From IMG/VR virus record IMGVR_UViG_3300046010_007443, positions 1 through 43,761 of that record: DNA of 43,761 nucleotides, one strand, 5' to 3'. The notes under the pieces were generated by a model. That model had not been told where the DNA came from, did no database searches, and saw nothing but the letters and a program-made list of their open reading frames with translations. Of this stretch, positions 11,916 to 39,522 are shown in pieces. The stretch comes from a virus. The position numbers and the translations under genes were made by a program. Position 1 is the stretch's first letter. Every line of letters begins with the position of its first letter.

Positions 11916-12775
11916 TGTTTAAAGTATATTCTAACTTTATAGGAGCAGATGAATTTGAAGCTGCTCTTACAGATGATTTAAAATCAAAACCAATCACTGT
12001 ATTTAATGACTATCCAGAAATAACTTTAGATAAGTTACAACTTAATAAGTATAATATTTTAATGGTATTAGAACCTAATCAGTTATTCGGTATTCATAAT
12101 TGGGCCATTCACAATCATCATTTATTTAGTCTTGTACTAACTTGGGGACAAGAGGTATTAGATAATTGCCCTAATGCTATGTTCTTTCCTATGGGTATTA
12201 GTTGGCTAGATAAAGAATATGTTGATAATGCAGATAAGATAGAAAAACAGTTTGAAGTATCGTTTCTATGTGGAGGTAAACAGCGTATTGAGGGCCATCA
12301 TTTAAGACATAGATTACATAAGCGTGAAAATGAAATAACCACTCCTAAACAATGGTATTATACCCTACCAGATTATGATTACAACGGAGGCCATCATACT
12401 ATCATAAAATATGAAGGTAAATCTCCTGGACATGAAAAGAAAAGATTGTGGAATAGTATGTTTACTATCGCTGTAGAAAATTCATCTAATAGAGGATATC
12501 ATACAGAAAAAGTTATTGATGCTTTTCTATCTAAAACATTCCCAATCTATTGGGGATGTCCAAATTTAGAAGAATTAGGATATGATCCAAATGGATTTAT
12601 CTATTGTAAAGATGAAGATGAAATTATAACTGCTGCTAATACACTAACTCCTGAATTATATGTTGAAAGAAAAGCAGCTATAGACTATAACTACGAACTG
12701 GCTAAACACTATGCAGATATATTTGGTCGATTTAGATCAGTTATGGAAGCAATAGTTGAAGAAAACAACATATAA
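11915..12775 (+). CDS. Glycosyltransferase family 10 (fucosyltransferase-like)
   Basis: 286 aa. The C-terminal donor-binding region FTIAVENSSNRGYHTEKVID followed by FPIYWGCPNLEE is the GT10 alpha-1,3/4-fucosyltransferase signature (AxENS, GYxTEK, PxYxG). The family uses GDP-fucose or related 6-deoxy sugars. No complete GDP-fucose pathway (Gmd plus Fcl) is seen here, so the donor may come from the host or be a different deoxy sugar. Confidence 0.8.
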   Translation: MFKVYSNFIGADEFEAALTDDLKSKPITVFNDYPEITLDKLQLNKYNILMVLEPNQLFGIHNWAIHNHHLFSLVLTWGQEVLDNCPNAMFFPMGISWLDKEYVDNADKIEKQFEVSFLCGGKQRIEGHHLRHRLHKRENEITTPKQWYYTLPDYDYNGGHHTIIKYEGKSPGHEKKRLWNSMFTIAVENSSNRGYHTEKVIDAFLSKTFPIYWGCPNLEELGYDPNGFIYCKDEDEIITAANTLTPELYVERKAAIDYNYELAKHYADIFGRFRSVMEAIVEENNI

Positions 12776-13887
12776 TGTACGATTATTTAATAGTAGGGTC
12801 TGGTTTCTTCGGGTCAATATGCGCTCGTGAATTAACTAATGCTGGTTATAAATGTTTAGTTTTAGAAAAACGAAACCACATTGGAGGAAACTGCTATACT
12901 GAAAATAGAGACGGAATTAATATCCATACCTATGGACCTCATATATTTCATACATCAAATGAAGAAGTATGGAGATGGATTAACCAATATGTTACATTCA
13001 ATAATTTTACTTTAAGACCATTAGCAATATATAAAGGTGAATCTTATTCTTTACCTTTTAGCATGTGGACATTTAATAAATTATGGGATGTAACTCATCC
13101 TCATCAAGCTAAACTTATAATTGAACAACAAAGTAAACATATTGGTGAACCTAAAAATTTAGAAGAACAAGCTATTAAATTAGTAGGTACAGATGTGTAT
13201 GAAAAACTGATTAAAGGTTATACTGCTAAACAATGGAGAAAACCATGTGATCAATTACCCAAAGAAATCATCAAACGTTTACCAGTTAGATTTACTTATG
13301 ATAATAATTACTTTAATGACAAATACCAAGGCATCCCAATTGGTGGATACACTCAGATATTTGAAAAATTATTAGATGGTATAGAGGTAAGATTAGGAGT
13401 AGATTATTTACAAAATAAAGAACATTGGGATAATCAAGCTACCAAAGTAATATATACTGGTCCTATTGATGCTTATTATAATTATCAATTTGGAGAACTA
13501 GAATACAAAACCACTAAATTCAAACACACTAAGAAAAATACAGACAACTGGCAAGGTGTTGCTATGGTGAATTATACTGATAGTGATATTGAGTATACTA
13601 GAATTATTGAACATAAACACTTTGAATTTGGCAATCAGCCTTATACTTGGATTACACATGAATATCCAACCGAATATAAAGCAGACAAAACTGAACCAAT
13701 GTATCCAGTAAATGACATTAAAAATAATTCCATGTATAAATTATACAAATGTTTGGCTGACCAGGAAAAAAATATTATATTCGGTGGACGACTTGCTGAA
13801 TACAAGTATTACGATATGCATCAAGTAATTGAATCAGCACTTAATTTTATAAAAAACAAATTAAATGAAAACACTAGCAGTTTTTAG
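12775..13887 (+). CDS. glf: UDP-galactopyranose mutase
   Basis: 370 aa, the usual length for Glf. The N-terminal FAD site (DYLIVGSGFFGSICARELTN) is followed by EKRNHIGGN, then the family motifs HTYGPHIFHTSNEEVW and KGYTAKQW. The C-terminal GGRLAEYKYYDMHQVI contains the FAD-closing region. The enzyme converts UDP-galactopyranose to UDP-galactofuranose, implying galactofuranose in the glycan. Its start overlaps the stop of the GT10 gene. Strong assignment. Confidence 0.95.
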   Translation: MYDYLIVGSGFFGSICARELTNAGYKCLVLEKRNHIGGNCYTENRDGINIHTYGPHIFHTSNEEVWRWINQYVTFNNFTLRPLAIYKGESYSLPFSMWTFNKLWDVTHPHQAKLIIEQQSKHIGEPKNLEEQAIKLVGTDVYEKLIKGYTAKQWRKPCDQLPKEIIKRLPVRFTYDNNYFNDKYQGIPIGGYTQIFEKLLDGIEVRLGVDYLQNKEHWDNQATKVIYTGPIDAYYNYQFGELEYKTTKFKHTKKNTDNWQGVAMVNYTDSDIEYTRIIEHKHFEFGNQPYTWITHEYPTEYKADKTEPMYPVNDIKNNSMYKLYKCLADQEKNIIFGGRLAEYKYYDMHQVIESALNFIKNKLNENTSSF

Positions 13888-25446: not shown

Positions 25447-25518
25447 GCTCAGTTCGTCTAATGGTTAGGACGCGTCCCTTTCACGGATGAAATACGGGTT
25501 CGACTCCCGTACCGAGTA
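25447..25518 (+). tRNA. tRNA-Glu (UUC)
   Basis: Clover-leaf with anticodon stem CGTCC/GGATG (one G-U), loop CTTTCAC giving anticodon TTC (25480-25482), and T-arm ACGGG-TTCGACT-CCCGT. The acceptor stem GCTCAGT/ACCGAGT has one A-C mismatch. The bases after the discriminator are CCT, so CCA is not fully encoded. Confidence 0.9.
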
Positions 25519-25553
25519 CCTGAAGACGGTGCGATAAGCATTGACGCCACGTC

Positions 25554-25653
25554 TGACCCTTAGCTCAGTAGGTTAGAGCAAGTTTATAGTACTCAAGGCT
25601 TATCAACCATGAGGAAATAAGTCGTGCCGCTGGTTCGATTCCAGCAGGGTCAG
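25554..25653 (+). tRNA. Oversized tRNA-like gene of unassigned isotype
   Basis: 100 bases. The acceptor stem (TGACCCT/AGGGTCA), D-arm (GCTC/GAGC) and T-arm (GCTGG-TTCGATT-CCAGC) are perfect, and the discriminator is G. The part between the D- and T-arms is 48-49 bases instead of ~22. It contains a 7-bp helix GGCTTAT/ATAAGTC around a 13-base loop with CAT near its centre, and a weak alternative stem AGT-TTATAGT-ACT. Neither gives a normal anticodon arm. It may carry an insertion or intron, have an exaggerated variable arm, or not act in decoding. Confidence 0.6.
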
Positions 25654-25672
25654 CAAATTGATCTTTGAAATT

Positions 25673-25759
25673 GGAGGTTTGGCAGAGCGGTCGAATGCGG
25701 TAGTCTTGAAAACTACTTTACGAGAAATTGTAACTGGGGTTCGAATCCCTAAGCCTCCG
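25673..25759 (+). tRNA. tRNA-Ser (UGA)
   Basis: 87 bases with a long variable arm. Acceptor stem GGAGGTT/AGCCTCC, anticodon stem GTAGT/ACTAC, loop CTTGAAA with anticodon TGA, T-arm CTGGGGTTCGAATCCCT region, discriminator G as in tRNA-Ser. Confidence 0.95.
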
Positions 25760-25765
25760 CAATAG

Positions 25766-25875
25766 ATCTTACCTTAGGCGGTGAAACCGTGCGATGGCCG
25801 ATGAATGAAAGTGAGGCGCTTAATGGCCGTGGCCCTTAAGAGGGGATAAAATATTCATCTGGTAAGTTTTATTTT
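25766..25875 (+). ncRNA. Unidentified structured RNA between tRNA-Ser and tRNA-Met
   Basis: A stretch without an open frame holds two nested perfect helices: CTTACC (25768-25773) with GGTAAG (25861-25866), and GATGAAT (25800-25806) with ATTCATC (25853-25859). Smaller hairpins lie inside (GCGGT-GAA-ACCGT and CCCTT-AAG-AGGGG). The outer helix is followed by TTTTATTTTT. It is not a clover-leaf and I recognise no RNA class; GC is much higher than the surroundings, as in the tRNAs. Confidence 0.55.
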
Positions 25876-25876
25876 T

Positions 25877-25951
25877 GGACCCTTAGCTCAGTTGGTTAGC
25901 AGCAGCGCGCTCATAACGCGAAGGTCGTAGGTTCAAGTCCTACAGGGTCCA
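25877..25951 (+). tRNA. tRNA-Met/Ile2 type (CAU)
   Basis: Acceptor GGACCCT/AGGGTCC, anticodon stem GCGCG/CGCG with loop CTCATAA (anticodon CAT), T-arm GTAGG-TTCAAGT-CCTAC. The D-stem is only three pairs (GCT/AGC). Elongator Met is most likely, but a lysidine-modified Ile (AUA) tRNA cannot be excluded from sequence. Confidence 0.9.
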
Positions 25952-25954
25952 CTC

Positions 25955-26026
25955 GGTCTCGTAGTTCAACGGATAGAACAACTGCCTTCTAAGCAGTGGA
26001 TCCAAGTTCGATTCTTGGCGGGACTA
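25955..26026 (+). tRNA. tRNA-Arg (UCU)
   Basis: Acceptor GGTCTCG/CGGGACT (with G-U pairs), anticodon stem ACTGC/GCAGT, loop CTTCTAA (anticodon TCT), T-arm CCAAG-TTCGATT-CTTGG. Only 3 bases after tRNA-Met, so co-transcribed. Reads AGA/AGG, fitting the A-rich codons of this genome. Confidence 0.93.
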
Positions 26027-26038
26027 CTAGATTTGGAA

Positions 26039-26063
26039 GCCAAGATATTAGTTCTTATATTTA
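26039..26063 (+). promoter_or_regulatory. Promoter for tRNA-Leu
   Basis: GCCAAGAT, 9 bases, TATATTTA, then 6 bases to the first tRNA base. The distance from box to RNA 5' end is what a -10-type element should show, which supports reading the repeated motif as a promoter rather than a translation signal. Confidence 0.6.
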
Positions 26064-26069
26064 ACGTAT

Positions 26070-26158
26070 GCCCTGGTGGTGAAATTGGTAGACACGCAAG
26101 ACTTAAAATCTTGTGATCCGCAACGATCGTGCCGGTTCGATTCCGGCCTGGGGCACCA
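26070..26158 (+). tRNA. tRNA-Leu (UAA)
   Basis: Acceptor GCCCTGG/CTGGGGC, anticodon stem CAAGA/TCTTG with loop CTTAAAA (anticodon TAA), long variable arm GATCCGCAACGATC, T-arm GCCGG-TTCGATT-CCGGC. Unlike its neighbours it encodes the 3' CCA (26156-26158). Confidence 0.95.
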
Positions 26159-26814: not shown

Positions 26815-27239
26815 GGGGGAGCCAGGTATTGCTCCGTAATGTGAAGGTACCACTACATGCAGACGGTTGGTAGAAGTCGTCTCTAAACAAACTGCAAAAC
26901 AACAAACGACAACGAATTGTCAACTATGACCTTCGATGATGTAATGTCATTCGTAGGCGCCGATTACGCTCTTGCAGCCTGATCCGCAAGGGGCAGCTGA
27001 TAGCCTTGCAACAGAACAGCACTTTAGTTTTCTCTGTAGTCATAAAACAGAGTGGTGGATGGCACGCTGACCATAATTAGCGTCCCCAAAAATTACAGTA
27101 CAGAGCTGGTCGCAAGACTGATGGAGTAAAGAAGAGATAAAAGTCACTACCCACGTCTCTTACAATTCAGTACTAAGCATGTGATACGTTGGTGTTATTG
27201 TTCCTTACGGATACATCGGTTCGAATCCGATCTCCTCCA
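26815..27239 (+). ncRNA. ssrA: Transfer-messenger RNA (tmRNA)
   Basis: About 425 bases. The tRNA-like ends pair as GGGGGAG (26815-26821) with CTCCTCC (27232-27238). The T-arm is perfect (ATCGG-TTCGAAT-CCGAT, 27215-27231), and the P2-like helix CCGTAA/TTACGG lies where expected. A tag frame ends in GCC-GAT-TAC-GCT-CTT-GCA-GCC-TGA (26959-26982). With GGC at 26956 as the resume codon the tag is GADYALAA, a typical proteolysis tag ending and similar to the Gly-starting tags of Bacteroidota. The conserved 5' motif of most tmRNAs (around GGATTCGACG) is altered here. It rescues stalled ribosomes. No smpB is seen in the window. Confidence 0.88.
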
Positions 27240-27252
27240 CAATTTACTTAAG

Positions 27253-27303: not shown

Positions 27304-27819
27304 ATGAGAACCTTATTTACAGCAATATTGATATCATTATATACGGTACTGGCTGCTCAAAAAGCTGTTCCTGAGGGAGAAATAAATTCACTTACATCAC
27401 CTTTTGCCACAGTACATATTGGTACTGTTACTAATAAAGTTAAAATAGGTCCACTTACTGGAAATAAAAACTTAGCATTTGGTGTTAAAAATATAACTGA
27501 AGAAGCTATATTAGATAAAGGATATGATTTAATTGATAACTCAGAACTTAGATTAGATTTAGAAATAATTTATCTTGATATACAACAAACATCAACTGGT
27601 GTAAGTGTGTTTCATAAAACAGAAAACGAAACAATAATTAGAATAAAAGGTATTCTTTATATAAATAATAAAAAATCAAAAGAATACGTTGCGACAGGTA
27701 AGTCCTCCGAAATATCTACATCTACAATGATTATCGATGAAGGTGGTGGTTTTAATCAAGCATCAGCTCGTTCTGCACTTAAAAAAACCATTATTAACCT
27801 AATCGAAAAACTCCTATGA
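27304..27819 (+). CDS. Secreted protein, YajG/CsgG-like in outline
   Basis: 171 aa from ATG 27304; the longer frame starts inside the tmRNA and is rejected. Signal peptide MRTLFTAILISLYTVLAAQ. The body has alternating strands (LRLDLEIIYLDIQQ, ETIIRIKGILYINNK) and a closing helix (SARSALKKTIINLIEKLL). This resembles the overall outline of periplasmic YajG/LptE- and CsgG-type proteins; the link is weak. It overlaps the T9SS cargo gene by 4 bases and opens the export module. Confidence 0.6.
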   Translation: MRTLFTAILISLYTVLAAQKAVPEGEINSLTSPFATVHIGTVTNKVKIGPLTGNKNLAFGVKNITEEAILDKGYDLIDNSELRLDLEIIYLDIQQTSTGVSVFHKTENETIIRIKGILYINNKKSKEYVATGKSSEISTSTMIIDEGGGFNQASARSALKKTIINLIEKLL

Positions 27820-29711
27820 AAAAACTATTATTAGCATTTGCGCTTTTAATTAGTTACGTAACCACATTTGCCCAAACACCTGCAATTGGACATTTCCAGA
27901 CTCTAGCAACAGTTAGAAGAGGTGATACATTAGATGTAGCCTGGTATTACAGACCAGGATCTCCTGACATTCGTACATTTCAGGTGGACTTTCAGTACAA
28001 GAAAACATTATTAACTTATTTATCTACTACAGTTGATGCTACTGTTAACGGAATGACCCCAGCAGTAAGCTATAGAACTTGGGATAACTATAAGTATAAT
28101 AACTATTCAAACGGAACTTATACTTATTTAACTAATAACGATTGGGCTGTAGGTCGTAACTACTTAGTATTATCAAGCGGTAATACTATTAACTCTGGTG
28201 GTTACATTATCCATAACAAATATAAAATCAACGCTGTAGCTCCAAACTACGTTTCAGATACAATTACTGTAAACTGGGCTCGTATGTTTGATGTTAACGG
28301 TAATACAATTGGTGATAACGTAGCTCAACTTACAAACCAAAAATTAGCTATTAAATTATTAGGTAACTTAACCTTATCAGGTAAAGTGTGGTTAGGACCA
28401 CAAATAAACTTACGTCCTGTGGTTATCTGTACTCAAGCTAATAACGGTGCTTTTATAGATTCAATCACAGTAAATGCTGATGGTACTTATACCTTAGATA
28501 ATATCGATGAAAATACTCGTTATAAACTTGAACTTAAATTCCCAGCAGCACTCGCCTCAATTAGAGATAATGCTGTAACAATAGCTGATGCCGTTAAAAC
28601 ATACGACGAATACACTAATACAGATGTTAACCAAACATTCCCAAGAACATACTTAAAAAATGGATTAGCATATTTGATTGCTGATGTTAACAAAACAGGT
28701 ACATTAGATGGTGGTGATGCTTATTCAATCTATGCTTCAGTATCAGGTTTAAAACCAATTGATACAACTAAAGCATTAAATGTATTTAGTAAGAATGCTT
28801 ATGATTCATTAGCCTTGGGACAAGATCAATGGGTTGCATGGCCTGGTAGTATTAATGGTGTAAATCATATCTTTGATAGTGTAGGTACAGTTAACTTAAC
28901 AAACGTTGATATTAAGTACTTCATCTTAGGTGACGTTGATAGAACCCATTCATCCCCAGTATTTGATGCTAATGGAAACTTAGTAACTGCAGCTAGATAT
29001 ATTGGAACACTTGATGTTAATATTCCAAATGTAACTGCACCAACAGGTCAAGCAATGTATGCTAACTTTAATATCAATACAAATGGTATTAAAAATGACG
29101 GTTTGCAGTTCGAAATGAAATACGATCCAACTAAGGTTAAGTTTGAAGAAATAGTATCAAACATTCAAGGACCGTGGTTACAGTATTTAACTCATGATGA
29201 CGCCAATGGTATTATTCGTTTTGGAGGAATGAATAACCAAGTACTAGGATCATTAACAGGTAATGCTACTCCATTTAAATTAAAATTCTCTCCAATCGGC
29301 AATAACGATATTATGACTAACTTGTATGTTAGAAGCTTAATGGATGCTGCTGATAGAAATGGAGATCATTTCAATATCAATTTACAATCTGATTATGTAG
29401 TATTATCTTCAAGACGAACTGTAGTACAAACACCTGAAGGTGAGATCTCAGCTACAATCAGGCCAAACCCGACAAGCGGGTTCTTTGAATTGGTAGTAGT
29501 ATTCCCTAAAGCAAACATGGATGCTTTAGCTATGGTATATGATATTCAAGGTCGTAAAGTTAAAGACATCGGTAAAATATGGAGTGATCAATATGTAACT
29601 ACCGTTATTAAGCAGGTTGATTTGACGTCTGCAGCCAATGGCAATTATTTATTAGTAGTAAATAACTTAGAAGATAATAAACGCTTAGCAAAACAATTTA
29701 TTAAAATTTAA
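27816..29711 (+). CDS. Secreted multidomain protein with a type IX secretion C-terminal signal
   Basis: 631 aa. Signal peptide MKKLLLAFALLISYVTTFAQ. An N-terminal cohesin-like beta domain (res ~20-180), a carboxypeptidase-like repeat (LSGKVWLGPQ to res ~250), a dockerin/EF-hand-like loop (ADVNKTGTLDGGDAY), a second cohesin-like domain (YIGTLDVNI to res ~530), and finally a type A T9SS sorting domain (TIRPNPTSGFFELVV, VYDIQGRKV, NGNYLLVV and KQFIKI at the end). Such cargo crosses the outer membrane through the host type IX system and is attached to the surface or released. Unusual for a phage-like genome. Confidence 0.85.
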   Translation: MKKLLLAFALLISYVTTFAQTPAIGHFQTLATVRRGDTLDVAWYYRPGSPDIRTFQVDFQYKKTLLTYLSTTVDATVNGMTPAVSYRTWDNYKYNNYSNGTYTYLTNNDWAVGRNYLVLSSGNTINSGGYIIHNKYKINAVAPNYVSDTITVNWARMFDVNGNTIGDNVAQLTNQKLAIKLLGNLTLSGKVWLGPQINLRPVVICTQANNGAFIDSITVNADGTYTLDNIDENTRYKLELKFPAALASIRDNAVTIADAVKTYDEYTNTDVNQTFPRTYLKNGLAYLIADVNKTGTLDGGDAYSIYASVSGLKPIDTTKALNVFSKNAYDSLALGQDQWVAWPGSINGVNHIFDSVGTVNLTNVDIKYFILGDVDRTHSSPVFDANGNLVTAARYIGTLDVNIPNVTAPTGQAMYANFNINTNGIKNDGLQFEMKYDPTKVKFEEIVSNIQGPWLQYLTHDDANGIIRFGGMNNQVLGSLTGNATPFKLKFSPIGNNDIMTNLYVRSLMDAADRNGDHFNINLQSDYVVLSSRRTVVQTPEGEISATIRPNPTSGFFELVVVFPKANMDALAMVYDIQGRKVKDIGKIWSDQYVTTVIKQVDLTSAANGNYLLVVNNLEDNKRLAKQFIKI

Positions 29712-31219: not shown

Positions 31220-32725
31220 TTGAAAAAATTAAGAATATATTTAAGTATATTACTTATCATCTGTCTCAGTTGGAGAGCTGAAGCACAGACACTTACTTAT
31301 TCATTTGTTGATCCTTGTACCAACCAAATAACTAATTTCTCAGTACCAGCTACAGGTACTGTGGTATATTTTTATGGTCAATCAAGACAATTTACATCAG
31401 CAGATGTTGCTAGTGGAGCGTTTGCTTCTTGGATAAATCAAGTATATTCTGATTATCGCAAAATATCACCTTGTGGACAACAACAAGGACAAGTAACCCA
31501 AAATCAAATCACATCTCAAATTATTAGTAACACAGTACAAAGTGTAGTTGGAAGTATAATGAGCCAAGCTCAATCAGCTGCATCTAGTACTATTACTGGT
31601 GTAGCTACATCAGCATCAACTTCTAATGCTTCATCAGCAGGAGGGAACTTAAATGCCTCTAAAAACAATAAAGATGGAGATAAAAAACCTAATCAAAATG
31701 GAAACAACAATAATAATAATGTTCCTAATGCTTCTAATAATAATAGTAGCAATGGGAGCAATACAAATGCTCCAGGAACTAATCAAAGTGGGAACAACAG
31801 TTCTGGAAGTAATAATGGGACTGGGACAGGGAATGGGAATAATACTAGTACTGGTGGGAGCAATAATAGTGGCTCTAATCAAGGAGGGAGCCCATCAACT
31901 AATAACTCTAATACACAATCCTCTCAAAACAATAAAACTGAAGAGAAAGGAGAAGAAGTAGCGGCTACAACTACAATGAATGTAGATCAACAAAATCAAA
32001 ATAGTTCTAAAGACGATAACAGTGGTGGTGGTGGTGGAGGTAAGGGTGGTAAAAACGGAGGTAAAAATGGAACAACTAATCCCCTAATAGTATCATCTGA
32101 TTTTACTACGGCTCAAAATTTAGACAAATCATTCACCCCTATACTTAATCTTAGTATGTCTCAATCTTCAATGACAGGAATGTCAAGTTGGGGATTAACA
32201 TCAATGATATGGTTTAACTTTAAACAATTTGCCTTATCAGGTAAATACACTAAAATTAACTTTAGTAAGAATGGTAAGTTAAAATGGGTACATAATATTA
32301 ATTTAACTGCTGTTTATTCATATGGTAATTTAATTGGATTTGTTGGATATAGTGGAATATTAAATGCAGGTAAATGGGGTGTGACTGGATTTAACACTAG
32401 TGCTGCTATGACATTAATAACTGGTGAACAGAAAAACACATTCATATCACCATCAATAACTGCATTCTATACTAAACCATTTAAAGCAAATAAACGTTTA
32501 ACTGTATCTCCTGAGTTATATATTATATCAACACCATTAATATATTCTACTGTAGAGAAAGTAACAACAACAGATAGAACATTTAGTGCGTTTATAGGTA
32601 GTGGGTTTGATTATCAAATAACTAAGCGATTTAAATTTAATATGAACTATAAAGCAAATTTGTCTACCAATCCAGATTTCCCTATATTGTCGTTCTTCCT
32701 AATCGGTAGTAAGATTAACCTATGA
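31220..32725 (+). CDS. Exported Asn/Gly/Ser-rich protein with C-terminal beta-barrel-like domain
   Basis: 501 aa from a TTG codon. Signal peptide MKKLRIYLSILLIICLSWRA. An N-terminal domain with two Cys is followed by a low-complexity region (res ~135-290) of Asn, Gly, Ser, Gln and Lys, ending in a Gly run. The last ~200 residues alternate hydrophobic and polar as in outer-membrane barrels (LALSGKYTKINF, GFVGYSGILN, RFKFNMNYKANL). The ATG at 31216 is in another frame and gives only 21 codons. The low-complexity part recalls self-assembling surface fibres; that is inference. Confidence 0.75.
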   Translation: MKKLRIYLSILLIICLSWRAEAQTLTYSFVDPCTNQITNFSVPATGTVVYFYGQSRQFTSADVASGAFASWINQVYSDYRKISPCGQQQGQVTQNQITSQIISNTVQSVVGSIMSQAQSAASSTITGVATSASTSNASSAGGNLNASKNNKDGDKKPNQNGNNNNNNVPNASNNNSSNGSNTNAPGTNQSGNNSSGSNNGTGTGNGNNTSTGGSNNSGSNQGGSPSTNNSNTQSSQNNKTEEKGEEVAATTTMNVDQQNQNSSKDDNSGGGGGGKGGKNGGKNGTTNPLIVSSDFTTAQNLDKSFTPILNLSMSQSSMTGMSSWGLTSMIWFNFKQFALSGKYTKINFSKNGKLKWVHNINLTAVYSYGNLIGFVGYSGILNAGKWGVTGFNTSAAMTLITGEQKNTFISPSITAFYTKPFKANKRLTVSPELYIISTPLIYSTVEKVTTTDRTFSAFIGSGFDYQITKRFKFNMNYKANLSTNPDFPILSFFLIGSKINL

Positions 32726-34152
32726 GACTATTGCTTGCTATATTGCTGTTTCCCTTTATCGTAATGGGACAATCAATAACTGCTCCACCAGGTAGAACTT
32801 ATCAGGTGAATGTTAGTGGACAAGATGCTAGTGGGTTTGTAATCAGTGGATTTGGAACTGAAACACTACTAACATCAATTAGTTTAGTTAATCCACCATC
32901 AGGTACAACATTTAATATAACCACAACAACAGGTCTAACAGCCGCAAGCGGATTTACTTTAACTGGAAATAAAACTCGTTTAGTATTTACAGGAACTATT
33001 ACTAATGTTAATAATGCGTTATCATCTTTAAAAGTTAACACTGGTTCAATACTTGGAAATGTTCAGATATCAGTAGCCACAACTGTAAACCCAGCAGGAT
33101 TTTTCTATAATGGTGTAAATGGACACTTTTATAGACCAATATCTGCTGGTAACACATACACTGGTGCACGAGCAGCAGCCTTGGCAACAACATTCAAAGG
33201 CCAGCAAGGATATTTAGTAACAATCACTTCAGCAGATGAAGATGCGTTTATTTTTAATAATGTACCACAAACTAATATATGGTTTGCATTAACGGATGAA
33301 GTGTCTGAAGGTATGTGGAGAATTAATGCAGGGCCTGAAAAGGGAACTCTAATAAAAACATCAAACGGACAATTTACAGGAAATATAGCTGGACAGTATA
33401 ATAACTGGGCACCTGGTGAACCAAACAATGCCGGTAATGAAGACTACGCAGTAACAAAATGGAATGGTTCTCAATGGAATGATTTACCAAATAATTTTAG
33501 TTGCGCCTATGTAATTGAATATGGAACATGGACTAATCCAGCTGATGCTACATTCACTGATTTCTATACAGCTAACACTATTAACACAGTAGCAATTACA
33601 AATACATTAACAGGTACAGTTTCAATACCAGCTGGATTAACATCAAGACCATTACTAACACTTTATAGAGTGGTAAATGGAGTTGATCAACTTGTAGATT
33701 ATAAAACAGTAGCTACAAACGGTACATATACATTTGTTTTACCAAATCAAAATTCAACATATAAATTAGTACCTTCATTAGATGTACAAGGTATAACATC
33801 AGCCGATTTTAATTTGGCTTGGGGGGAAGCACAAAATATAAGCGCTCCTAATAATTTAGCTCCCGGTTTAGTGATGACTGGAACTAAGCAATGGGCAGCT
33901 GCTGATGTAAATAGAAATGGAATCTTTGATTTAGGTGATGCTGCTTTAATATCATTTCATATTCATGGATGGAAAGCAATAAATAATGTGTTATGGTTTA
34001 CAGCTGCTAACTACGATCTAATAACTAGAACTAATTTTGCTACAATTACTCCTGTGACATCGTTTATACTTAATGTGACTACATCAGATATTACTCAAAA
34101 CATTAAATACTGTATATTAGGAGACGTTAATTTATCTCATTCATCTAATTAA
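32722..34152 (+). CDS. Secreted C-type lectin-domain protein
   Basis: 476 aa. Signal peptide MRLLLAILLFPFIVMGQ; beta-sandwich part (res ~20-120); then a C-type lectin-like domain (res ~135-275) with NIWFALTDEVSEGMW, YNNWAPGEPNNAGNEDYAV and NDLPNNFSCAYVIEY, including the W-x-G-E-P-N calcium/sugar-binding loop. Next come a fibronectin-like stretch and a dockerin/EF-hand-like loop (ADVNRNGIFDLGDAAL). It ends ILGDVNLSHSSN, a motif shared with the T9SS cargo protein, but without a sorting domain. It overlaps the previous gene by 4 bases. Confidence 0.8.
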   Translation: MRLLLAILLFPFIVMGQSITAPPGRTYQVNVSGQDASGFVISGFGTETLLTSISLVNPPSGTTFNITTTTGLTAASGFTLTGNKTRLVFTGTITNVNNALSSLKVNTGSILGNVQISVATTVNPAGFFYNGVNGHFYRPISAGNTYTGARAAALATTFKGQQGYLVTITSADEDAFIFNNVPQTNIWFALTDEVSEGMWRINAGPEKGTLIKTSNGQFTGNIAGQYNNWAPGEPNNAGNEDYAVTKWNGSQWNDLPNNFSCAYVIEYGTWTNPADATFTDFYTANTINTVAITNTLTGTVSIPAGLTSRPLLTLYRVVNGVDQLVDYKTVATNGTYTFVLPNQNSTYKLVPSLDVQGITSADFNLAWGEAQNISAPNNLAPGLVMTGTKQWAAADVNRNGIFDLGDAALISFHIHGWKAINNVLWFTAANYDLITRTNFATITPVTSFILNVTTSDITQNIKYCILGDVNLSHSSN

Positions 34153-38034: not shown

Positions 38035-38652
38035 ATGAATAAAGTAGAATTGTTAGGATATTATGGTTCAGATTTAGTTCATGCTCAATCAGCTTGGACA
38101 TCAACATCTAGAGATATAACTGATGAAAAAAAAGCTAGGGTAGGTAAACTACTTAAAATGTTAGCAAGTGAAGGACATCACACACCGTTTGAAAAATCAT
38201 CATTACATTTTCTAGTAACAGTAGAACAAGCAACACACATTCATCTAATTAAACACCGAATTGGAGTTAGTATTAATGGTGAGAGTGCTAGATATAAGGA
38301 ATTGAAGGAAGATAAGTATTATATTCCTGAGGATTGGGATAATCGTTGGGCAATAGCATTAAAAAACTTTACAGATAGAGCAAATGAATTATATCATGAA
38401 TGTTTAGAAGATCTAACACCAGTATTAGGTCGTAAACGTGCTAAAGAATCAGCTCGATTCTTCAAAACATTCAACTCACAAATCACAATGGATGTAATGT
38501 TCAACTGGCGTTCATTCTATCACTTCCAACAACTACGCAACAGCGAACATGCTCAGGTTGAGGTAAGACAATTAGCTCAAGACATGTTAGACCTGGTTAA
38601 ACAGATTGAAGGTAATCCGTTTAAAGAAACTATTGAAGCTTTTGAACTTTAG
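38035..38652 (+). CDS. thyX: Flavin-dependent thymidylate synthase
   Basis: 205 aa. The ThyX signature is present as KHRIGVSINGESARY (H74, R75, S84), with Lys in place of the first Arg and one more residue than the canonical RHR-x7-S spacing as I count it. The GHHTPFEKSSLHFLV segment and the C-terminal RSFYHFQQLRNSEHAQVEVR region match the FAD- and dUMP-binding parts. It makes dTMP from dUMP using FAD, NADPH and methylene-tetrahydrofolate; common in large phages. Confidence 0.93.
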   Translation: MNKVELLGYYGSDLVHAQSAWTSTSRDITDEKKARVGKLLKMLASEGHHTPFEKSSLHFLVTVEQATHIHLIKHRIGVSINGESARYKELKEDKYYIPEDWDNRWAIALKNFTDRANELYHECLEDLTPVLGRKRAKESARFFKTFNSQITMDVMFNWRSFYHFQQLRNSEHAQVEVRQLAQDMLDLVKQIEGNPFKETIEAFEL

Positions 38653-38696: not shown

Positions 38697-39482
38697 ATGA
38701 TTATGGAAACCAACAAAGCACTGCTAGACATTGTCTTTAGCCACAGAAACAAACAGTACGGCGCGTACGAGTTAAGATCAAACTACGCTAAACGAATAAA
38801 CAAAGCCCTACTAATCACCCTTGGGTTAGCAGGTGCTTTGGTTTCCGCTTATGCGTTTAAGGATGATAAGGAATTTACTAAACCAATCTATACTACTACT
38901 GAAATAACAATTACTGAGGTTAAGGAAAAGGAAGTAAAACCACCTCCTCCCCCTCCTCCACCTCAAGAGGTAACTACTACTGAAACTCAAGTAGTTAAAT
39001 ACACTGAGCCAATCATTGTAACTGAACCAACTGAGCCTATTCCAGCTCAAGTTGATCTTAGAGGTGCTGAGATAGGAACATTCGATAGGAAAGGTGATAC
39101 CTGTCAGATTGCTCCATTACCTGGAATAGATGGAGGTACTGGTATCATTGATGTACCTACTGAACCTGATATATTTGAGCGAGTTGAAATTGAAGCTGAG
39201 TTTCCAGGTGGGGTAAATAAATGGAGACAATACTTAGAGAGAAACCTAAGAGTAGATGATCAAGTACCTGAAGGTACCTATGCTGTACTCATTCAATTCG
39301 TAGTAGATAAGGATGGTAACATCAGCGATGTAATCGCCTTAACTGATCATGGCTATGGAATGGAAGACGAAGCTAAACGAGTAATTAAACGCGGACCTAA
39401 ATGGAACCCAGCAATCCAAAATGGACGTGAAGTTAAAGCTTATAGAAAACAATTAATTACATTCCAAATAGGAGGTGAGTAG
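38697..39482 (+). CDS. tonB: TonB energy-transducer protein
   Basis: 261 aa. RNKQYGAYELRSNYAKRINK precedes the membrane span (res ~36-53), as in Bacteroidota TonB. A proline run (res ~82-89) and a Pro/Thr/Glu spacer follow, then a TonB C-terminal domain (res ~165-260) with EFPGGVNKWRQYLERNL, GTYAVLIQFVVDKDGNISDV and GPKWNPAIQNG. TonB couples ExbB/ExbD to outer-membrane receptors; no exbB or exbD lies here, so host partners are needed. Start ATG 38697 or 38703. Confidence 0.9.
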   Translation: MIMETNKALLDIVFSHRNKQYGAYELRSNYAKRINKALLITLGLAGALVSAYAFKDDKEFTKPIYTTTEITITEVKEKEVKPPPPPPPPQEVTTTETQVVKYTEPIIVTEPTEPIPAQVDLRGAEIGTFDRKGDTCQIAPLPGIDGGTGIIDVPTEPDIFERVEIEAEFPGGVNKWRQYLERNLRVDDQVPEGTYAVLIQFVVDKDGNISDVIALTDHGYGMEDEAKRVIKRGPKWNPAIQNGREVKAYRKQLITFQIGGE

Positions 39483-39505
39483 GCAAGACCCAGGTCATAT
39501 ATTTA
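39482..39505 (+). promoter_or_regulatory. Promoter before the 66-aa gene
   Basis: GGCAAGAC, exactly 8 bases, TATATTTA, then 17 bases to ATG 39523. Perfect copy of the two-part signal, beginning at the last base of the tonB stop. Confidence 0.75.
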
Positions 39506-39522
39506 TTTCAAATAAGTAAAGT

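Follow-up and report, generated by a model that had tools for sequence, protein, structure and literature searches.

A complete TonB encoded by a large phage of freshwater-type Bacteroidota and its possible role in host import

Import across the outer membrane of Bacteroidota depends on TonB, and the receptors it serves are also entry doors for phages. A SusC-like TonB-dependent receptor has been reported in the megaphages Mar_Mega_1 and LR745206, where the authors propose boosted uptake, and the text of that paper makes no mention of a phage TonB (PMC9723777). ExbB has been described as an auxiliary metabolic gene of Lentisphaerae phages with a proposed role in uptake, the host being without ExbB according to the authors (PMC11361711). 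Further, three lambda-like viruses recovered from Crohn's metagenomes carry a tonB annotation (K03832); there the gene was read as a virulence gene and left unanalysed (PMC7288430). PHROGs holds no TonB family, and a search of the open-access literature returned no description of a phage-encoded TonB or TonB homolog. As the papers above cover only receptors, ExbB and an unanalysed tonB label, phage TonB is apparently unstudied. Here we describe a tonB gene in a window of 43,761 bases, a complete IMG/VR record and a linear fragment, from a large phage of freshwater-type Bacteroidota.

The gene encodes a complete TonB. A preliminary description of the DNA, made from its letters, had listed all parts of a Bacteroidota TonB, and we confirmed the lead-in, the span, the Pro-rich linker and the C-terminal domain (Table 1). 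Translation probably starts at 38703 (METNK...), as the relatives begin at METNK and are without the first two codons of the open reading frame. The Bacteroidota-type lead-in RNKxYGAYxLR is found ahead of the span as RNKQYGAYELR, and Y21, G22, A23, Y24 and R27 of it are invariant in the TonB alignment. There is one N-terminal span and none elsewhere; it covers residues 37-55 with a modest mean hydropathy (1.68), and AlphaFold (AF2) places a helix at residues 30-53 with low confidence. After the span, EITITEVKEKE aligns with EMTIQDVKQEE of host TonB; the segment lies at the place described for the ExbD-binding D-box strand of E. coli TonB (PMC10907165) and may bind ExbD. The linker opens with a run of eight prolines (PPPPPPPP, residues 82-89) and is disordered in the AlphaFold model, with pLDDT <60 over most of its length.

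Table 1. Positions in the window of tonB, its parts and the adjoining elements
Feature	Position	Strand	Basis or remark
thyX, FAD-dependent thymidylate synthase	38035..38652	+	PF02511, 117 bits
tonB	38697..39482	+	ORF of 261 aa; PF03544 match and phage relatives L002, L003, L054
Bacteroidota TonB lead-in RNKQYGAYELR	38745..38777	+	Residues 17-27; conserved with cellular TonBs
Single membrane span	38802..38861	+	About residues 36-55; sole hydrophobic window
Post-membrane segment PIYTTTEITITEVKEKEV	38883..38936	+	Position of the D-box (ExbD-binding strand); candidate, by alignment
Pro-rich periplasmic linker	38940..39167	+	Residues 82-157; sequence
TonB C-terminal domain	39168..39479	+	Residues 158-261; Pfam match and fold
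Intergenic element TATATTTAT	39498..39506	+	Just after tonB; possible promoter of the genes to the right

The C-terminal domain was recognised by Pfam as TonB_C (PF03544) at residues 197-257, scoring 36.6 bits where the curated cut-off is 24.6. The NCBIfam model tonB_Cterm (TIGR01352) gave no match to the protein at E 0.001, and the L002 and L003 copies scored 17.7-17.9 bits, under its cut-off of 27.1. As five of five Chitinophagales-type host TonBs tested were also below that cut-off (22.6-26.6 bits), it seems that TIGR01352 misses the whole subfamily and not the phage protein alone. In the AlphaFold model residues 171-260 have a pLDDT of 82-90, and the best Foldseek match of the domain was TonB in complex with FoxA (E 5e-4). 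Structure comparison gave Z 8.9 to the H. pylori TonB-CTD and Z 8.8 to FoxA-bound TonB (rmsd 2.9 and 2.5, respectively, over 86 residues); solved TonBs bound to FoxA and BtuB were the closest structures, with TolA domains next. The C-terminal beta-sheet, whose loss would have spoken against the preliminary description, is thus retained, and the model folds as TonB.

The gene order of the window follows that of Flavobacterium phage vB_FspM_immuto, a myovirus of 160 kb, and immuto counterparts were found for the nuclease and glycosylation block, the lectin/cohesin block and the DUF932 gene. No TonB_C match was detected in immuto, the nearest isolate, hence tonB was either gained within the immuto-like group or lost from part of it. 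The same TonB occurs in three more phage contigs, L002 (91% identity), L003 (contig G001, 88%) and L054 (contig G002, 64%), which excludes chance; it should be noted that all immuto-like TonB contigs are fragments. G001 encodes a tail tube, baseplate hub, tape measure, helicase, DNA polymerase and GroES/GroEL along with the same tonB, and its tail, replication and GroES/GroEL genes have immuto counterparts. Here a host-type gene lies inside a real phage genome, as expected of a phage auxiliary metabolic gene. Host contamination was ruled out by the four contigs with four gene orders and phage genes around tonB in each. The gene had been described as viral, and the immuto-like order, the viral flanking genes and the tail and replication genes of the sister contig bear this out.

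Several other features of the window were recorded. Five tRNAs at 25447-26158 lie beside a tmRNA at 26815-27240 (Rfam RF00023, 54.3 bits against a gathering score of 47) with the tag DNELSTMTFDDVMSFVGADYALAA. The protein encoded at 27816-29711 combines a signal peptide with a cohesin-like part and a sorting tail for type IX secretion, the tail scoring below the Pfam cut-off, and a C-type lectin protein is encoded at 32722-34152; this cohesin/lectin block is 73-97% identical in L003, with distant counterparts in immuto. A sugar block at 1314-22402, partly collinear with immuto, holds glycosyltransferases, an aminotransferase and nucleotide-sugar epimerases, with a UDP-galactopyranose mutase at 12775-13887.

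As the preliminary description stated, tonB sits between thyX and small phage genes: thyX ends 44 bp upstream, and a 66-aa open reading frame and a DUF932 gene, whose product has relatives in phages, lie downstream. A thymidylate synthase gene directly precedes tonB in three of the four immuto-like contigs, thyX in the window and L002 and thyA in L054; in L003 (G001) groEL takes this place. This thyX/thyA neighbourhood may simply be a shared nucleotide-metabolism region. The same description had placed phage-type promoters to the right of tonB, and this held in part. Sigma-70-like sites in the window were at chance level (38 against 32.8 +/- 5.1) and a scan for Bacteroidota-type promoters was near chance, but an element of the TATATTTA type is found at 39498. 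Eleven of its 16 plus-strand copies are intergenic, far more than expected from an intergenic space of 6.6% of the sequence, and we infer that TATATTTA is a candidate phage promoter. Copies are located at 1083, 24044, 24902, 35499, 36033, 39498, 42266, 43155 and 43565 of the window, and often a start codon is no more than about 50 bases away; no element of this type was found upstream of tonB itself.

To place the phage protein among host TonBs, as the preliminary description had suggested, we built trees of 106 and 92 TonBs by quick search. In both, the four phage copies formed one clade (support 97-99) nested within the TonBs of Chitinophagaceae and their kin, and the branch between the phage clade and the host TonBs was long. 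Searching bacterial genomes with the back-translated window protein alone found nothing, and bacterial relatives were instead retrieved with a broader C-terminal pattern. The best match in the Chitinophagaceae genome IBVUCB2 was the TonB of an exbB-exbD-exbD-tonB operon, at about 50-55% identity. From this match and the nesting, the host probably belongs to a Chitinophagaceae-type group.

The sequence comparisons indicate that tonB is under selective maintenance in immuto-like phages. Among the window, L002 and L003 copies dS was 0.42-0.61 with little protein change, and pairwise dN/dS, from three close pairs only, was 0.09-0.12 for the whole protein, falling to 0.03-0.07 when the C-terminal domain is taken by itself. 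Measured against 75 Chitinophagales-type TonBs, the phage proteins keep 27/27 of the host-conserved C-terminal columns (L054 25/27) and 15-18 of the 19 N-terminal columns, the window TonB keeping 15. By their total of conserved columns they rank close to the lower quartile of cellular TonBs, and several cellular paralogues score below them.

TonB was also detected in other phages. LR756501, a phage of 735 kb, and the related contig G003 carry a TonB from another branch of the family. A third type, without the YGAY lead-in, occurs in two podovirus contigs (L165 and L166) that also encode a portal, a terminase and a primase-helicase. A single origin of all phage TonBs was ruled out (p-AU 0.0036), and the trees thus indicate that phages have captured TonB at least twice; the number of captures beyond two is uncertain, since the branches that connect the huge-phage with the podovirus copies are long. 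Matches labelled 'Bacteriophage sp.' (MT83xxxx) were discarded as phage evidence, being unverified faecal contigs without annotation, and contig L006 bears bacterial-looking genes. A huge-phage TonB of 169 aa (L011 898-1407) is without the whole Pro-rich linker, in frame, relative to L004; it may be a genuine form that does not span, or the gap may have arisen in assembly. Secreted TonB_C proteins with an apparent signal peptide and no membrane anchor are encoded at L014 10979-12310, L162 3942-5204 and L163 3121-4122, the one in L014 having a long Ser/Tyr/Arg-rich tail.

Both podovirus contigs, at L165 3340-6027 and L166 1193-3529, have a ribonucleotide reductase gene about 190 bp downstream of tonB. 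The best NCBIfam model for this reductase was the adenosylcobalamin-dependent triphosphate reductase, with 258.6 bits and so below its cut-off of 340; it is probably B12-dependent, a wording we keep cautious as phage RNRs have been put in the wrong class in earlier work (PMC6370689). A TonB-dependent receptor together with PnuC was found in five records of huge Bacteroidota phages, including Prevotella Lak phages (L055 24-4048 of LR756501, L149 4321-12550 of G003, and L154, L155 and L156), and the two genes are adjacent in four of the five. In LR756501 and G003 a receptor with plug and barrel adjoins pnuC, with NAD synthase beside it, and this stretch of G003 also shows NadR-like and NAPRTase genes; in LR756502 and LR745206 the receptor adjoins pnuC, and in Lak-B8 both genes are about 7 kb apart. 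Receptor, PnuC and NAD genes possibly form a complete import route for nicotinamide riboside. No TonB was detected in the receptor-bearing LR756502, LR745206 and Lak-B8, which suggests that host TonB suffices for these phages. The window and its three sister contigs, all fragments, gave no TonB-dependent receptor, and none of the seven TonB-bearing phage records matched the ExbD family model. For immuto itself a connection with NAD or B12 genes was dropped, as its annotated 'NAD synthetase', 'NadR' and 'PduO' were not supported by Pfam. In NC_055915 at 101-118 kb (L143) the 'NAD synthetase' is a GIY-YIG endonuclease, and the 'PduO' annotation reads 'cob(I)alamin adenosyltransferase' with no such Pfam match.

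The reading we favour, at somewhat better than even chances, is that the gene encodes a working TonB which powers host import during infection. An N-terminal signal anchor in the inner membrane would join the host ExbB-ExbD motor, the Pro-rich linker would cross the periplasm, and the C-terminal domain would engage the Ton boxes of host TonB-dependent transporters. Made in infection, the phage TonB might then sustain or raise energized import of cofactors, iron or glycans over the outer membrane, at a time when the host's own synthesis is cut back and DNA precursors are needed by the phage. Here we infer the coupling to ExbBD, the engagement of transporters, the imported substrate and the benefit to the phage. 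The architecture is complete, and the constraint is strongest in the receptor-binding domain. The identity to the operon TonB of the likely host suggests that the partner interfaces are kept, and the missing phage ExbD is as expected of a part which plugs into the host motor. Nucleotide and cofactor genes are neighbours of tonB across independent captures. The preliminary description had offered three roles, boosted uptake, replacement of a degraded host TonB and a block on rival phages; the constraint on all parts, together with the gene neighbours across phages, makes us prefer an energizing TonB. Against it stand the receptor search without a match in the window and its sister contigs, all fragments, the huge phages with a receptor but no TonB, and the thyX/thyA neighbourhood with its possible simpler meaning and the exception of groEL in L003. 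Also, a competitor that binds both partners would be expected to show constraint at both ends.

Such a competitor could act in superinfection exclusion, by occupying ExbBD or Ton boxes and so barring TonB-dependent rival phages or toxins. Docking has pointed to TonB-dependent receptors as likely phage receptors in Bacteroidota (PMC10569736), and a protein of phage T5 blocks such a receptor (PMC9586334). The linker-less TonB of L011 and the anchor-less proteins of L014, L162 and L163 could only compete, and this keeps exclusion alive as a rival, since the TonB domains of other phages may be unable to transmit force. The window TonB, however, keeps the anchor, the linker and both partner regions at host-like length under purifying selection, nothing in it looks broken or altered towards a dead-end binder, and a blocker would also starve the infected cell. 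With no positive support from the window protein, we regard exclusion as unlikely here. We give similarly low odds to replacement, where host TonB is lost or not renewed and the phage copy restores the normal level. Mechanically this equals a working TonB without a gain over the uninfected cell; it shares the same molecular evidence, and sequence cannot separate the two. The phage does bring its own GroEL, tRNAs and tmRNA, a pattern of supplying host-type functions, but there is no evidence of host TonB degradation in infected Bacteroidota.

A role in the envelope without a transport cycle, as a spanin-like lysis protein spanning the periplasm or as a localiser of phage surface proteins, seems very improbable. 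TonB does span the periplasm and the phage has the T9SS-tail and C-type lectin proteins, yet constraint is strongest in the domain that binds Ton boxes (dN/dS 0.03-0.07), for which a spanin would have no use, and tonB lies beside thyX and not in a lysis cassette. The least probable reading of all is that of a passenger, either a host gene captured recently and to no benefit or a piece of host DNA wrongly assembled into a viral contig. It could be raised because tonB is a host-type gene and immuto is without it, but is already largely refuted by a clade of its own (support 97-99), by its presence in four contigs with four gene orders, all amid phage genes, and by the high synonymous divergence of even the closest copies (dS 0.4-0.6) with small protein change.

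For a working TonB the wider meaning is that a phage with its own coupler could change what the infected cell imports and which other phages enter. The independent uptake of tonB by unrelated phages makes the powering or steering of host import look like a recurring viral strategy, and captures beside dNTP and cofactor genes suggest that import of cofactors over the outer membrane may limit phage replication. Further, we speculate, as a possibility short of an even chance, that Bacteroidota phages repeatedly took TonB, and huge phages the receptor and PnuC too, to import scarce cofactors for the synthesis of phage DNA and NAD. With the same reserve, these cofactors may be such as B12 and nicotinamide riboside, and the whole would amount to viral control of host outer-membrane energy coupling.

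Phage phi80 integrates beside E. coli tonB, and the host flank is therefore a possible source of tonB in lambda-like viruses. Like the window, the Crohn's viral contigs carry tonB, but in lambda-like viruses (PMC7288430). The megaphage receptor is also a phage-encoded part of the Ton system, but it belongs to the outer membrane (PMC9723777), whereas the window TonB is an inner-membrane energy coupler by its sequence. The ExbB of Lentisphaerae phages is likewise a Ton-system part in a phage, but a motor subunit and not TonB (PMC11361711). The superinfection-exclusion protein of T5, acting on FhuA, is likewise a phage protein directed at the Ton system, in its case at a TonB-dependent receptor (PMC9586334). 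Unlike the T5 protein, that of the window is TonB-like and anchored in the inner membrane. The exclusion protein of T5 is an outer-membrane lipoprotein which acts on the receptor itself. A close cellular counterpart is the Bacteroidota TonB of the exbB-exbD-exbD-tonB operon, as in IBVUCB2 (L039 3491-4321). It shares every part with the window protein, from the lead-in and the span through the post-membrane segment and the poly-Pro linker to the C-terminal domain, and the two are 50% identical over their full length. Compared with it the window copy is phage-borne, without exbB/exbD, in a clade of its own and with a shorter linker, and three of the four phage copies lack the N-terminal ILSAD stretch that host TonBs have.
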